NCBI GenBank assembly: GCA_017962275.1
Contig: JAGCVQ010000099.1
Span: 1-44,135 of the forward strand
Reading direction: 5' to 3'
DNA from: Bacteroidales bacterium
GTDB taxonomy: Bacteria > Bacteroidota > Bacteroidia > Bacteroidales > WCHB1-69
Length of the DNA: 44,135 bases
Positions 37,726 through 43,796 of this stretch are shown here, piece after piece. The notes under the pieces were generated by a model. That model was not told the origin of the DNA. It saw only the letters and a list, made by a program, of their open reading frames with translations, and did not search any database. Numbering within the stretch: position 1 is the first letter of the stretch; each line of letters begins with the position of its first letter. Both the position numbers and the translations under genes were made by a program.

Positions 37726-38706
37726 ATGTATAAAATAGCAGTGATAGCAGGTGGAGACTCGGGTGAATATGAGGTCTCTCTGAGGTCTGGAGACAACATT
37801 TTCCAGCAGTTGGACAAGTCGCTTTTCGAACCGTATCTGATCCATTTCAAGGGACGCGACTGGCATTACAAGGCTCCGGACGGACGGGTTTTCCAGATCG
37901 ACAAGAACGATTTCTCGCTGACGATTGACGGGCAGAAGATCACCTTCGACCTCGCCTTCATCGCCATCCACGGCACGCCGGGCGAGAACGGCAAGCTTCA
38001 GAGCTATTTTGAGATGGTCGGACAACGCTACGTCGGTTGCGGATTCTTCCCTTCCGCACTGACTTTCAATAAGTTCTACTGCAATTTGGCGGTTGCGCAG
38101 TTGGGTGTGCCCATCGCGCCGTCATTGCATTTCTACGCCGGCGACCCAATTGACGTGGAACGCATCGAGGAGGTTTGCGGCTATCCTTGCTTCGTGAAAT
38201 CCTGCAACTCGGGCTCCAGTGTGGGCGTGACGAAGGTGCACGGGCGCGAGGAGTTGGAGAAGGCGTTCACGGAGGCGCTGAAATACGACAACCAGCTGAT
38301 TGTGGAGAAGATGATTCATGGGCGCGAGCTGGCTTGCGGCGTCACCACCGCATACGGCGGCGTGAAGATGGTCGCCATCACCGAAATCGTGGCGCATAAC
38401 GAGTTCTATGACTATGACGCCAAATATACGGACATCGGCCACAGTCTCATCACACCCGCCGACATCGCCCCCGACATGCAGGCGCTTGTGAAGCAATATG
38501 CCGAAACCGTCTTCCGCCAGCTCGACTGCAAGGGCATCGTGCGTGTCGATTTCATCTTGGACGAAGCGGCTAAAAAGCCTTACTTCCTGGAGGTCAACAC
38601 AATACCGGGACAAACGGCCTTGAGCATCATCCCGGCACAATTGAAGAGCCAAGGGCTGGATGTTAAACAATTCTACACCAAGTTGGTCGAAGAAGAGCTG
38701 AAATAG
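37726..38706 (+). CDS. ddl: D-alanine-D-alanine ligase
   Basis: 326 residues of the ATP-grasp family. It joins two D-Ala for the peptidoglycan stem peptide, in the cytoplasm. Motifs: AVIAGGDSGEYEVSLRSG (N-terminal substrate-binding Glu), AIHGTPGENGKLQ, CFVKSCNSGSSVGVTKV (ATP loop), HGRELACGV, AKYTD and the metal site VDFILDEAAKKPYFLEVNTIPG. GEYEVS in place of the proteobacterial xEHEVS is common in Bacteroidota. It lies 122 bases before the peptidoglycan hydrolase operon, the two being separated by a GC-rich hairpin. Confidence 0.94.
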   Translation: MYKIAVIAGGDSGEYEVSLRSGDNIFQQLDKSLFEPYLIHFKGRDWHYKAPDGRVFQIDKNDFSLTIDGQKITFDLAFIAIHGTPGENGKLQSYFEMVGQRYVGCGFFPSALTFNKFYCNLAVAQLGVPIAPSLHFYAGDPIDVERIEEVCGYPCFVKSCNSGSSVGVTKVHGREELEKAFTEALKYDNQLIVEKMIHGRELACGVTTAYGGVKMVAITEIVAHNEFYDYDAKYTDIGHSLITPADIAPDMQALVKQYAETVFRQLDCKGIVRVDFILDEAAKKPYFLEVNTIPGQTALSIIPAQLKSQGLDVKQFYTKLVEEELK

Positions 38707-38763: not shown

Positions 38764-38803
38764 CCATCCCCTCCTTTGGAGGGGTGCCCGAAGGGCGGGG
38801 TGG
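38764..38803. repeat. GC-rich double hairpin after ddl
   Basis: CCCCTCC/GGAGGGG (38768-38774 with 38778-38784) followed by GCCC/GGGC (38786-38789 with 38793-38796). It could be the ddl terminator, although no T-run follows, or a dispersed repeat. Confidence 0.6.
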
Positions 38804-38827: not shown

Positions 38828-39847
38828 ATGATATACAGCAAGATAAAAACAATAATGTGCATCGTGCTCGTCATGGCCGTTGCGATAACAGGGCATGCGC
38901 AGTACAACGAGCAGGATATCCGTGATTACATTGAGCGGTATGCGGATGTGGCGGTGCAGAAGATGCAGGAGTACAAGATCCCGGCCAGCATCACGGTGGC
39001 GCAGGGCATCTTCGAGAGTGCCTGCGGGAAAAGCCGTTTGGCGACCGAGGGCAACAACCATTTCGGCATTAAGTGCCACAACGAATGGACCGGCGACACT
39101 ATTCTCATCGACGATGATGAACTTCAGGAGTGTTTCCGCAAATATGCTTCTGTGTCAGAATCTTACACCGACCATTCGCTGTTCCTGACCACTCGGAAAC
39201 GCTACTCCAACCTCTTCGAGCTAAACATCATGGACTATCAGGGGTGGGCGCGGACGCTGAAGCAGGACGGTTACGCCACCAACCCGCAGTACGCCGACCG
39301 GCTCATCAGTCTCATCGAGCGTTTCAACATCGCGAAACTCGACACGCTTTGGCAGAACACCTACGGCACGAATCCGGTCACACAACCGGAGTCCAAGCCG
39401 GTGGCGGAGAATCCGAAACCTGCCAAAAAGCCCTCCGAAACCGACAAACATGGCAAGAAGGTGTTCACGGCTCTGGGCAGCGAATATCCTTCCGACCAAA
39501 GCCCGTTCACCTACAGAAAGGTGTTCAAAAACAACAATACCTACTTCGTGATTGCCGAGAAGGGTGACACATACGAGAAAATCGCGCAGGATATTTTGGT
39601 GATGTCCGACAATTTGCGGAAGTTCAACGACGCGAGTGCCACCGACGAGCCGATGGAGAACGAGATTGTGTATGTGGAGGCCAAGGCGCACGGCAACCCC
39701 ATGCGCGTGCACACCGTGCAGGAGGGCGAAACGCTTCGATACATCTCGCAACGCTATGGAGTTCAGCTTCGTTATATATTGAAATACAATATGTTGGAGG
39801 AGAATTCCGTTATCCATCCCGGGGATCAGATTTTGTTAAGACGATAA
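38828..39847 (+). CDS. GH73 glucosaminidase with LysM (intact active site)
   Basis: 339 residues: signal peptide (about 1-24, cut after GHA), GH73 domain (about 28-180) with catalytic Glu in ASITVAQGIFESACGKSRLA, then NNHFGIKCHNEW, YTDHSLFLTTRKRYSNLF and DYQGWARTLKQDGYATNPQYA. A short linker precedes two LysM-like repeats (about 232-282, degenerate; about 290-339, HTVQEGETLRYISQRYG). GH73 enzymes hydrolyse GlcNAc-MurNAc bonds in peptidoglycan; the LysM part binds glycan. First gene of a tight operon of four (spacings 10, 5 and 1 bases). Confidence 0.92.
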   Translation: MIYSKIKTIMCIVLVMAVAITGHAQYNEQDIRDYIERYADVAVQKMQEYKIPASITVAQGIFESACGKSRLATEGNNHFGIKCHNEWTGDTILIDDDELQECFRKYASVSESYTDHSLFLTTRKRYSNLFELNIMDYQGWARTLKQDGYATNPQYADRLISLIERFNIAKLDTLWQNTYGTNPVTQPESKPVAENPKPAKKPSETDKHGKKVFTALGSEYPSDQSPFTYRKVFKNNNTYFVIAEKGDTYEKIAQDILVMSDNLRKFNDASATDEPMENEIVYVEAKAHGNPMRVHTVQEGETLRYISQRYGVQLRYILKYNMLEENSVIHPGDQILLRR

Positions 39848-39857
39848 TTTTGGAACG

Positions 39858-41189
39858 ATGAAAAAGATATTCACTTTAGCAGCGGCCTTGTGCCTGGTGT
39901 CCATCGGTTTTGCACAGTACACGATGGAGGACCGTATTTATGACTATATCGATGATTACAAGGATCTTGCGATGCAGGAAATGGAACTTTACGGCATTCC
40001 GGCGAGCATCACGCTGGCGCAGGCCATCTACGCGTCGCAAGCCGGCACCAACGACTTGGTGCGCGAGTGCCATAACCACTTCGCCATCATGTGCCACACG
40101 CAGGAGTGGAAAGGCGAAACCTACTACCGGCCGGCCGACAAGAATCACGAGAACTGCTACCGGAAGTATGATACCGATGCGGATTCCTACCGCGACCACT
40201 CCCTCTTCCTCTCGACCCGTAGCCGGTATGTGAAACTGTTCTATTTCCCCATCACGGATTACAAGTCGTGGGCCAACGGGCTTTTGGAGGCGGGCTTTTC
40301 CGGCAACCCGAAATATGCCGACACGCTGGTCTCCATCATCGAGAAGTACTATCTGATGCACTACGACCGCAAGGTGGCGCAGAAATTGGGTGACACTACG
40401 GCCCTGCGTGCGATGGACAAGCCGCATCCCGAACGTACCGGCACTACGCCGACTACCCCTGTGGCGGCGAAACCCGCTGTGCAGCAACCCGAACCGGCTC
40501 CTGCTCCGAAAACAGAGGTGACCAAGCCGGTAGAGCAACCCAAGGCGGAACCCGTCGCGCAAAAGCCGGTGGAACCTGCTAAGACAGAGGCTCCCAAAGC
40601 GGCCGTGAAAAGAGACACGATGGAGGTGAACGGCATCGAAGTGATTGTGGAGAAGCCGGAGAAGAAGAAGGCCGAGCCGCAGCCGCAACAACCGAAACAA
40701 GAGCCACAACAACCGAAACAAGAACCGAAACAAACCCAGCCGCAACAACAGGAGACGGCTCAAACGCAGCTCCCCGAAAAGGTGAACGGACTGAACGTGT
40801 TTGTCTTGGATCCCTATACAGTTCCTTATAAATCAGCGTATTATCCTTATACCAGCCGTCCCGTTTACGAGAACAACAAGACCAAGTTCATCTTGGCGCG
40901 TGCCGGCGACACCTATCAGAAGTTAGCCAACGCATTGCAGCTGACAGAGAAAAACCTGCGCCTCTACAACGATGTTTACGACGGCTCGGAACCCATTGAG
41001 GATGAGGTGATTTACTTAGAGCAGAAGAGCACGAAATCCACAATTCCGTATCATACGTTGCAGGAGGGCGACACCTATCGCTACATCGCCCAGCGGTACG
41101 GAATCCAGCTGAAAATCCTCATCAAACGCAACAGCGGCAACATCAACAGCTACGGCGTGGGGGATCAGATTTGTATCGGTTGTAATTAA
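39858..41189 (+). CDS. GH73-like pseudoenzyme with LysM
   Basis: 443 residues, paralogous to the upstream gene: signal peptide (about 1-19), GH73-like domain (about 22-175), a long Pro/Gln/Lys/Glu-rich linker (about 195-310) and two LysM-like repeats at the C-terminus. In the active-site segment the neighbour reads TVAQGIFESACGKS; this protein reads TLAQAIYASQAGTN, so the catalytic Glu is Ala and the GxS is lost. NHFGIK has also become NHFAIM. The remaining core (YRDHSLFLSTRSRYVKLF, DYKSWANGLLEAGFSGNPKYA) is intact and the frame is open. I infer a non-catalytic peptidoglycan-binding or regulatory protein, not a decaying gene. Confidence 0.88.
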   Translation: MKKIFTLAAALCLVSIGFAQYTMEDRIYDYIDDYKDLAMQEMELYGIPASITLAQAIYASQAGTNDLVRECHNHFAIMCHTQEWKGETYYRPADKNHENCYRKYDTDADSYRDHSLFLSTRSRYVKLFYFPITDYKSWANGLLEAGFSGNPKYADTLVSIIEKYYLMHYDRKVAQKLGDTTALRAMDKPHPERTGTTPTTPVAAKPAVQQPEPAPAPKTEVTKPVEQPKAEPVAQKPVEPAKTEAPKAAVKRDTMEVNGIEVIVEKPEKKKAEPQPQQPKQEPQQPKQEPKQTQPQQQETAQTQLPEKVNGLNVFVLDPYTVPYKSAYYPYTSRPVYENNKTKFILARAGDTYQKLANALQLTEKNLRLYNDVYDGSEPIEDEVIYLEQKSTKSTIPYHTLQEGDTYRYIAQRYGIQLKILIKRNSGNINSYGVGDQICIGCN

Positions 41190-41194
41190 CGAGA

Positions 41195-42157
41195 ATGCCA
41201 AAGTCCTTCTATCATTTCAACCCGAAAACGCTTACCTACGAGAAGGTTAAGCTCAGCTTCAAGCACCTGTTCAAGCGCATTGCATGGGTGTTTGCCAGCG
41301 GCGTGGCCTTCGCGCTCGTCTTTGTGTGGATTGCATTCTATTTCATTGATTCCCCGAAGGTTAAGATTCTGGAGAAAGAGAACAACGAGTTGAAGGACGA
41401 GGTGGATTACCTCAGCGCCCGCATCGATGTGATGTCGGCGGCGCTGGCGGACATTGAGGACCGCGACGACAATGTCTATCGCAACGTCTTCGAGGCGGAT
41501 CCCGTACCCGCGAGCGAGCGTTACCCGCTGCTGATCGAGGACACCCGCTACGATAGTTTGTCGCGCTCCGAAGCCTACACCTTGCTGAAGGCCGCCAACA
41601 AGAAGGCCGATCAGCTTACCGTGCGGTTGGCGGTGCAGACCCGCTCGTTGGACACACTGGAGAAAATCGCCAATTCCAAAGCGGAGATGCTCGCTGCCAT
41701 CCCGGCCATCCGTCCGTTGAAGAACATGTTCACCATCACCTCCGGTTTCGGACGGCGTTACCACCCGGTGCTCAAGACGTTACGTAACCATACCGGCATT
41801 GACATTGCCGCCCCGAAGGGTACACCTATTTACGCCACCGCCGATGGTACAGTCTCCCGTGAAAAACCTGGCTCCGGCTACGGTATCTGCGTGGTGCTCA
41901 ACCACGGATATTCCTATCAAACGTTGTATGCCCACATGTCGAAGGCTGCCGTGAAGTCCGGACAGAAGGTGAAACGCGGTCAACTGATTGGTTATGTGGG
42001 TTCTACGGGTATGTCGTCAGGCTCGCACCTGCACTATGAGGTCATCAAGAACGGGCAGCCGGTCAACCCGATTTACTACTTCTACATCGACATCACCCCC
42101 GAAGAGTACAACTCGTTGTTGGAGTCTTCCAAGAAGATCAATCAGGCACTTTCATAG
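41195..42157 (+). CDS. M23 (LytM) peptidoglycan endopeptidase
   Basis: 320 residues: a single membrane segment (about 26-48, HIFKRIAWVFASGVAF-like region and FVWIAFYF), a coiled coil (about 55-85, KILEKENNELKDEVDYLSARID), and a LytM/M23 domain (about 180-300). Zinc ligands are intact: GRRYHPV and HTGIDIAAP (His and Asp), YAHMS and HLHYEV (His-x-His). It should cut peptide cross-links or stem peptides in the periplasm, or bind them as EnvC does, but unlike EnvC its site is complete. The stop lies one base before the next start. Confidence 0.92.
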   Translation: MPKSFYHFNPKTLTYEKVKLSFKHLFKRIAWVFASGVAFALVFVWIAFYFIDSPKVKILEKENNELKDEVDYLSARIDVMSAALADIEDRDDNVYRNVFEADPVPASERYPLLIEDTRYDSLSRSEAYTLLKAANKKADQLTVRLAVQTRSLDTLEKIANSKAEMLAAIPAIRPLKNMFTITSGFGRRYHPVLKTLRNHTGIDIAAPKGTPIYATADGTVSREKPGSGYGICVVLNHGYSYQTLYAHMSKAAVKSGQKVKRGQLIGYVGSTGMSSGSHLHYEVIKNGQPVNPIYYFYIDITPEEYNSLLESSKKINQALS

Positions 42158-42158
42158 T

Positions 42159-43796
42159 ATGAAACGCATGGCCCGAAAATTGTCTTTTGTGTTAATAATC
42201 ACCGTTTTGCTGGTCTCTTGCAAAACGAAGTTCGACCATCCCGACAAGCAAATCTTTCACTATAACGAGTCCTCCGGCATCCTGAGTCTGGATCCGGCGT
42301 TCGCTTCCGGGCAGGCGACGATATGGCCATGCAACCAGCTCTACAACGGGCTGGTGGATATGGACGAGAATCTGCAGGTGGTGCCGGCCATCGCCAAAAG
42401 CTGGACCATTTCCGAGGACGGCAAAACTTACACGTTCATCCTGCGTAACGACGTGCAATTCCACAACACGGACTTTTTCCCATTCGCGAAACCGCGATAT
42501 GTCACAGCTTCGGATTTCGTCTATAGTTTGGGGCGCATACTCAGTCCGGAGGTGGCCTCGCCTGGCGCGTGGATTTTCCAAAAGGTGAAACGCGACAAAG
42601 AGGGCAACCCAGCATTCAAAGCCTTGAACGACACGGTTTTCCAGATAGAACTGACGGAGCCCTTCCCGCCATTCCTCGGCATCCTGACGATGAAATACTG
42701 CTCCGTGGTTCCGCATGAGGTCGTGGAGCGTTATGGCAAAGACTTCCGCAAATACCCCGTTGGCACAGGTCCTTTCCAGATGAAGCTGTGGGAGGAGGGT
42801 GTGAAGCTGGTGATGCGCAAGAACCCCAACTATTTCGAAAGGGACTCCGCCGGCAATCGGCTGCCCTACATTGATGCGGTGGCGGTATCGTTTATCGTTG
42901 ACAAACAGTCTGTGTTCATGGAGTTTATGAAGGGATCGCTCGACTTCATGTCGGGGGTTGATCCAAGCTACAAGGACGCGCTGCTCACCAAAGACGGACG
43001 GCTCAATCCCGAGTATGCCGACAAAATCAAGCTAATCACTGGACCATACCTCAACACCGAGTATCTGGGTTTCAATTTAAAGCCGACGGACAAGCACAAC
43101 CCGCTGATGGACAAGCGGATCCGGCAGGCTATCAACTATGGTTTCGACAGGGAGAAGATGATGAAATATCTGCGTAACAATATGGGTTATGCGGGGGACG
43201 GTGGATTTGTGCCGCGCGGAATGCCTTCGTACAATCCCGAGCGCACGGGCGGGTACAGTTACAATCCGCAGAAGGCGCTGCAACTGCTGAAGGCGGCGGG
43301 TTATCCGAACGGGAAAGGGCTTCCGCCCATCACGCTCACCGTTTCGGCGCAATATGCGGACTTGTGCCAATACATCCAGCACGAGTTGGCGCAGATCGGC
43401 ATCACGCTGAACCTCGACATCGCGCAACCTGCCCAGCAACGGGAGATGATGCGCAGTTACCAGCTGCCGTTTTTCCGCGGCTCGTGGATCTGCGACTACC
43501 CTGACGCAGAGAACCAGATGTCGCTGTTCTATTCCAAGAACCTGCAGCCCAACGGTTCCAACTACACGCATTACGTGAACCCAAAGTTCGACCAACTATA
43601 CGAAAAATCGCAACGTTGCACGGATGAATCCCTGCGCAACGAATATTATATCCAAATGGATGCCCTGTTGGTGGAAGACGCTCCCTTCGTCATCCTATAT
43701 TACGACAAAGTAGCCCGTTTCGTGCAGAAAAACGTGGAAGGTTTGGGCGTGAACCCCGTGAATATGCTCGATTTGCGGCGGGTGAGGGTGCGGTGA
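42159..43796 (+). CDS. Family 5 peptide-binding lipoprotein
   Basis: 545 residues from ATG 42159 (the frame is open further upstream, inside the M23 gene). Lipoprotein signal MARKLSFVLIITVLLVSC, then the SBP_bac_5 fold: LSLDPAFASGQATIWPCNQLYNGLVD, AKSWTISEDGKTYTFILRNDVQFHN, VTASDFVYSLGRIL, KYPVGTGPFQM, AINYGFDREKMM and GGYSYNPQKALQLLKAAGYPNG. These proteins bind oligopeptides for ABC uptake, and some (MppA type) bind murein peptides. No permease or ATPase genes follow, so it works with a transporter encoded elsewhere. Its place in the peptidoglycan hydrolase operon suggests murein-peptide capture. Confidence 0.9.
   Translation: MKRMARKLSFVLIITVLLVSCKTKFDHPDKQIFHYNESSGILSLDPAFASGQATIWPCNQLYNGLVDMDENLQVVPAIAKSWTISEDGKTYTFILRNDVQFHNTDFFPFAKPRYVTASDFVYSLGRILSPEVASPGAWIFQKVKRDKEGNPAFKALNDTVFQIELTEPFPPFLGILTMKYCSVVPHEVVERYGKDFRKYPVGTGPFQMKLWEEGVKLVMRKNPNYFERDSAGNRLPYIDAVAVSFIVDKQSVFMEFMKGSLDFMSGVDPSYKDALLTKDGRLNPEYADKIKLITGPYLNTEYLGFNLKPTDKHNPLMDKRIRQAINYGFDREKMMKYLRNNMGYAGDGGFVPRGMPSYNPERTGGYSYNPQKALQLLKAAGYPNGKGLPPITLTVSAQYADLCQYIQHELAQIGITLNLDIAQPAQQREMMRSYQLPFFRGSWICDYPDAENQMSLFYSKNLQPNGSNYTHYVNPKFDQLYEKSQRCTDESLRNEYYIQMDALLVEDAPFVILYYDKVARFVQKNVEGLGVNPVNMLDLRRVRVR

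Follow-up and report, generated by a model that had tools for sequence, protein, structure and literature searches.

Composition and gene order of the cluster

The gene cluster described here lies on contig JAGCVQ010000099.1 of a Bacteroidales bacterium (assembly GCA_017962275.1), and the whole stretch analyzed, 44,135 nucleotides long, is referred to as the window. Four genes on the forward strand at positions 38828-43796, separated by 10, 5, and 1 bases, encode two secreted proteins with a GH73 glucosaminidase domain (GH73a and GH73b), an M23 peptidase, and a substrate-binding protein (SBP) of the SBP_bac_5 family. Judged from alignments, phylogeny, and substitution rates, GH73b is a real, conserved, and selected pseudoenzyme. 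The coordinates, frames, and spacings assigned to the four genes in a preliminary description of this DNA all proved correct; the upstream ddl gene and the C-terminal CxxC motif of GH73b had been missed. The features are as follows.

37726..38706, forward strand: Ddl, D-alanine--D-alanine ligase, at the start of the conserved cluster (325 bits to NCBIfam NF002527, whose cut-off is 310)
38828..39847, forward strand: GH73a (protein P0001), secreted GH73 and LysM protein, with the Glu codon at 39014-39016 (PF01832, 129 bits; LysM, 44 bits)
39858..41189, forward strand: GH73b (P0002), secreted pseudo-GH73 protein with a proline/glutamine-rich linker and a LysM region (PF01832, 98 bits; LysM, 36 bits)
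40032..40034, forward strand: codon GCG for Ala59 of P0002, aligned with the catalytic Glu of P0001
41172..41183, forward strand: C-terminal CxxC (Cys439-Cys442) of GH73b, found in 51/51 proteins matching the GH73b profile
41195..42157, forward strand: M23 peptidase (P0003), domain at about 41786-42070 with all five site residues (PF01551, 128 bits)
42159..43796, forward strand: SBP_bac_5 lipoprotein (P0004), OppA/DppA/MppA-like (PF00496, 289 bits)

The scan of genome contigs with P0002 yielded 39 related loci, all from Bacteroidales or Bacteroidetes. The genes ddl, GH73a, GH73b, and M23 occur in this order and on one strand in 38 of them, so that the order is not a product of chance, even if a set found with P0002 as the query favors loci that keep GH73b; the 39th locus (L041) is a lone GH73 gene. 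In all 38 loci with GH73b, ddl is located upstream of GH73a at a distance of 2-180 (median 42.5), GH73a and GH73b are separated by 10-13 bases, and GH73b and M23 by 2-74. Window pieces (L001 and L002) and loci with the same DNA as L019 and L034 (L042 and L045) were omitted from trees and counts. The gene-order comparison proposed in the preliminary description thus places the pseudoenzyme in a conserved envelope-remodeling cluster, as its idea of one functional unit had implied; the lipoprotein, which it had counted as a member of that unit, is set apart by gene order (see below).

A similar picture is seen in genome samples drawn by kinship, which include 40 genomes of the genus and 148 of the order; species are shared between these samples and the loci of the P0002 scan, so that the counts are not independent. 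Both GH73 genes are present in 39 of the 40 genus genomes. Among 20 regions from 20 genomes of the family, a full GH73b was found in nine, always between GH73a and M23 and with ddl upstream; two of these nine, both from the window's genus, have the SBP gene. The remaining 11 regions contain GH73a without an adjacent GH73b, and in three of them (L046, L047, and L060) M23 directly follows. GH73 matches occur in 124 of the 148 order genomes (three of the window's genus), and at 19 loci outside the family no second GH73, Ddl, or M23 gene was found within three genes on either side. An intact pseudoenzyme maintained without its neighbors, which would have spoken against the proposed unit, was not seen: all 47 GH73b copies with a GH73 domain lie beside M23 and GH73a (a GH73a fragment in L103). 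The genome of the window, 94% complete, contains no further GH73 match.

The spacer between ddl and GH73a contains GC-rich inverted repeats at 38770-38800, present as a single copy in the window. A special RNA at this place was considered but is not supported, the predicted fold being no better than that of shuffled sequences (z-score -0.52), and promoter-like and terminator-like sites are about as numerous as in shuffles. The relatives of the source bacterium are inhabitants of animal guts.

The inactive paralog GH73b

P0001 and P0002 are 40% identical over 217 residues, and Glu63 of P0001 (GAG, 39014-39016) is aligned with Ala59 of P0002 (GCG, 40032-40034), in agreement with the earlier reading of the two as paralogs of which the first alone retains the catalytic glutamate. 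GH73a possesses both marks of an active GH73 enzyme, the domain (129 bits to PF01832) and Glu63; GH73b lacks the glutamate. In an alignment of 128 GH73 domains from the family, the order sample, and L041, the glutamate is present in 81/81 GH73a and 0/47 GH73b, where the column contains alanine (29 copies), serine (16), or tyrosine (2). As the change occurs in all 47 copies from separate assemblies, a sequencing or assembly error is ruled out. Lys82 is likewise found in 61/61 GH73a proteins of the family (L041 included) and gone from 47/47 GH73b. Still, 41 of 60 near-invariant GH73 positions are retained in at least 90% of the GH73b copies.

The GH73b proteins form a single clade (branch support 100/96) recovered in 100% of bootstrap trees. 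GH73a-type rows below 150 bits were omitted from this tree and from the CxxC counts. The GH73b class was assigned by the CxxC tail, and assignment by the best profile gives an identical split, with the reservation that the GH73b profile was trained on GH73b proteins of the genus, tails included.

Within the genus, the median ratio of nonsynonymous to synonymous substitution rates (dN/dS; pairwise Nei-Gojobori estimates at dS of 0.1-1.2) is 0.043 for the GH73b domain (59 pairs), 0.072 for the GH73a domain (130 pairs), and 0.140 for the GH73b linker (14 pairs). Purifying selection acts on the inactive domain within the genus. Decay in progress is ruled out there by the low dN/dS and by the lack of stop codons within the listed matches.

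Structure prediction, also proposed in the preliminary description, was run for P0002 and indicates a retained GH73 fold. The AlphaFold2 model of P0002 has a mean predicted local distance difference test score (pLDDT) of 70.4, with ten-residue means of 70-96 over residues 21-170 (the mean for P0001 is 68.5), and matches the FlgJ-type structure 3vwo with a Foldseek E-value of 8.7e-08; TMt values to 3vwo, 5dn4, 2zyc, and 3k3t are 0.74-0.78. PDB entry 3k3t, entitled 'E185A mutant', has alanine at the site of Ala59 of P0002, where its parent entries have glutamate. Fold and motif context are shared with the FlgJ-type enzymes, and GH73a agrees with them in the place of the glutamate; the natural change in GH73b corresponds to the engineered one of 3k3t (by its title), and the LysM region and CxxC are additional in GH73b. 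With the fold retained and 90% or more of the GH73b copies preserving the counterpart of Asp115 of GH73a, one could imagine an enzyme working through another acidic residue. This is very improbable, however: both the glutamate and Lys82 are lost in 47/47 copies, and Glu70 of P0002, which does not vary within the genus, is missing from sister genera (for instance, from L049, L052, and L059).

The two paralogs had been described as having two LysM repeats each. One LysM in each protein exceeds the Pfam threshold; the preceding region is conserved in both P0001 and P0002, but no model calls a LysM there, and the layout with two repeats is thus not confirmed. A CxxC within three residues of the C-terminus distinguishes the two groups, being present in all 51 proteins with GH73b as the best profile and in none of 82 GH73a proteins. 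The same terminal motif occurs in secreted-looking LysM-only proteins of genera g2 and g14, whose LysM region groups with that of GH73b in one clade (100/99).

L097, 3851-4366, reverse strand: LysM-only protein (g14)
L098, 8873-9373: LysM-only protein (g14)
L099, 8103-8603: LysM-only protein (g2)
L101, 7772-8320: LysM-only protein (g2)

These LysM-only versions in four family genomes would fit a plain structural protein that binds peptidoglycan via its LysM region and carries the GH73 domain as a relic. We consider this unlikely for GH73b, since the inactive domain is constrained in the genus (dN/dS of 0.043) and present in 38/38 loci with GH73b. In g2 (L099 and L101), the LysM-only gene is located directly 5' of the M23 gene and a second M23-like gene (m2, see below), and GH73a is found on another contig (L054 and L102). 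Since this GH73b-type remnant remains beside M23 and not GH73a, the g2 arrangement, seen in two of the four LysM-only genomes, points to M23 as the likelier partner of GH73b.

The g2 remnant bears also on the role of an antagonist or decoy, by which GH73b would compete with GH73a for glycan and dampen its cutting without contacting M23. Such a role is suggested by the layout shared by the two proteins, by the position of GH73b 10-13 bases downstream of GH73a in 38/38 loci, and by the many structural positions retained. A pure competitor would need the GH73 domain, though, and the remnant beside M23 has none, so that we regard this role as doubtful.

In g14, the LysM-only gene adjoins an open reading frame (ORF) of 515-524 amino acids with a weak LysM match. 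Among the matches listed for the 119 order genomes outside the family, there is one open frame shorter than 200 amino acids (G099:C617, 168 amino acids), which adjoins a GH73 match with an internal TGA; that listing does not make a CxxC visible.

The M23 peptidase, its mostly degenerate relative, and the lipoprotein

In M23 peptidases, a His/Asp/His triad binds zinc and two further histidines are catalytic. P0003 contains all five residues (H199, D203, H247, H278, and H280), in line with the complete site noted earlier, and the HDHHH set is complete in 38/38 M23 copies that reach the site, the window included; the copy in L015 is cut by the contig end. By eye, P0003 begins with a membrane helix. 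Its best NCBIfam matches are the DD-endopeptidases ShyA (116 bits) and MepM (112 bits), with which it shares the site residues, but both scores are far under the model cut-offs (700 and 341, respectively) and P0003 has no other Pfam domain.

A second, weaker M23 gene, m2, occupies the place of SBP in all seven sister-genus clusters that have a full GH73b and reach that far. It encodes an M23-like membrane protein.

L112 (own genome of the window, contig C78), 8589-9506: m2
L043, L044, L048, L049, L052, L055, and L059: m2, following M23

In five of six clusters m2 is followed by genes that we take, from the look of their sequences, to encode PhoH, LpxK, and a purine nucleoside phosphorylase; L044 has a different gene after m2. 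The same three followers accompany m2 where it lies elsewhere in the genomes of the window and two other genus members (L112, L113, and L117). At least one of the five site residues is gone in 16 of 19 complete m2 copies (the partial copy in L103 was omitted), and the m2 of the window's genome has arginine in place of one histidine. The idea of m2 as a clean second pseudoenzyme had to be softened, three copies being intact. On the simplest reading of these gene orders, the ancestral arrangement would be ddl-GH73a-GH73b-M23-m2-PhoH-LpxK; in the window's genus it would have been interrupted behind M23, with SBP coming to lie at that point.

Of the 38 genus loci, 33 have SBP immediately after M23: 32 within the locus itself, and L015 by way of L126, another contig of its genome on which M23 and SBP lie together. 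No SBP match follows M23 in L003, L007, L011, L012, and L013, of which L003 is the closest relative of the window (93% identity in P0002). A full SBP gene is located on another contig with other neighbors in the genomes of L003, L007, L011, and L012, and the L013 genome has an SBP fragment at a contig end, its upstream side off the contig. SBP_bac_5 is a single-copy gene in 19 of the 20 family genomes searched, including 13 of 14 from sister genera, with none found in G017, and it is located away from the cluster in all 11 sister-genus loci read. Gene order in the genus and sister genera does not support SBP as an ancient cluster member. By this evidence, SBP is a late and loose member, and the inactive paralog is an old feature of the cluster that the SBP gene joined later. 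Separate transcription of the lipoprotein gene, named beforehand as contrary to the four-gene unit, is what gene order indicates for the relatives with SBP elsewhere.

P0004 has the lipobox LVSC, read from its sequence, and the cluster contains no permease genes, as noted earlier. However, matches to BPD_transp_1 permeases of OppB/OppC-like length and to oligopeptide-type ATPases are present in 20/20 family genomes (the ATPase match in the window's own genome is below the cut-off, 22.8 against 27.1 bits). Scattered genes of an Opp-like transporter account for the absence of a permease from the cluster. In PMC6022919, the gene for E. coli MppA is described as lying outside the transport operon and its product as using the Opp or Dpp permeases, and Asp439 and Val437 are named among its residues. 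P0004 resembles MppA in its family, in its gene's distance from a permease, and in an Asp aligned with Asp439, the residue that binds the peptide amino group. It differs in being a lipoprotein of low similarity, being 24.5% identical to MppA, 25.1% to OppA, and 26.7% to DppA, and hence no closer to MppA than to the others. P0004 is probably an OppA-type receptor for peptide uptake with the scattered Opp-like permeases; murein-peptide capture is possible.

The preliminary description had treated the cutting of glycan, the cutting of peptides, and the capture of released peptides as one unit, a device that would make the lipoprotein an MppA-like murein-peptide receptor. The position of SBP after M23 in most genus loci, the Asp439 equivalent, the MppA precedent of a gene outside the transport operon (PMC6022919), and the permease and ATPase matches throughout the family agree with it. 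The five genus loci and 11 sister-genus loci with SBP outside the cluster do not, and the aspartate is common to MppA, OppA, and DppA. Hence such a device appears quite unlikely, and, as far as gene order tells, the four-gene release-and-capture set is not the inherited unit.

Two further observations concern transport genes. In the window's genome, two permease-family ORFs (L082, 6792-8024, and L083, 5989-7098), the first 60 residues of which differ at one place, each adjoin a similar second ORF; either a duplication or a mixture of strains in the assembly would account for this. In genus g8 (L089, 4778-6724, and L092, 5000-6907), the SBP gene is directly 3' of an ORF of 635-648 amino acids with a signal-like start; the L092 ORF is matched weakly by the GH73a profile (40 bits), probably through its LysM part.

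A possible role of GH73b in wall remodeling

The best explanation of these data, which we hold to be moderately probable, is an inherited wall-remodeling unit in which GH73b would serve as a non-catalytic wall-binding adaptor or regulator, with M23 as the likelier partner. The genes ddl-GH73a-GH73b-M23 would constitute such a unit of one Bacteroidales family, in which, by family membership, GH73a is predicted to cut glycan strands and M23 the peptide cross-links. GH73b would have arisen once from a GH73a-like gene, with the catalytic glutamate lost at or near that time, and would have been retained to bind the wall without catalysis. Its inactive groove and LysM region most likely hold glycan, and GH73b may hold or tune the membrane-anchored M23 on the wall or, less likely, its active sister GH73a. 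The C-terminal CxxC is a possible docking or disulfide element, and the SBP lipoprotein would have joined late, where the old M23-m2 order broke. The scaffold or regulator suggested at the outset is compatible with this, and is what we infer for GH73b.

Several observations weigh against this explanation. A genus genome that is 98% complete (G225) has neither GH73 gene. GH73b is absent from L046, L047, L060, L110, and L111, though GH73a adjoins M23 there, and is therefore dispensable in these loci. In g14 (L097 and L098), the LysM-only relative is located away from M23, beside other genes. GH73b copies from other genera sit on long branches, some of which join each other according to a warning from the tree program (L059_b with L052_b), and the LysM tree was built on few columns. 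Finally, the dN/dS values derive from related metagenome-assembled genomes with a median dS near 1, and from different pairs for each gene.

Wall-hydrolase folds without catalysis are familiar from EnvC, NlpD, and ActS, degenerate LytM/M23 regulators, and control by pseudoenzymes is known for proteins of the LytM fold. GH73b would follow the same principle, that of a non-catalytic wall hydrolase retained as a partner of active enzymes, and m2 is degenerate in 16/19 copies; unlike these regulators, GH73b combines a glucosaminidase fold with a LysM region, and its cluster contains no amidase gene. We found no described GH73 case of pseudoenzyme control in the open-access literature searched. More tentatively, and with a low probability in our estimation, the cluster could be an operon made of pairs of an active enzyme and an inactive twin, GH73a with GH73b and, in sister genera, M23 with a mostly inactive second M23, in which GH73b docks on the membrane M23 through its LysM region and CxxC and switches it. 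If so, the inactive GH73 twin would be the GH73-fold counterpart of the EnvC and NlpD activators. Wall hydrolases need restraint, and a selected inactive glucosaminidase beside an active one and an M23 peptidase offers a small and direct test system for it in Bacteroidales.

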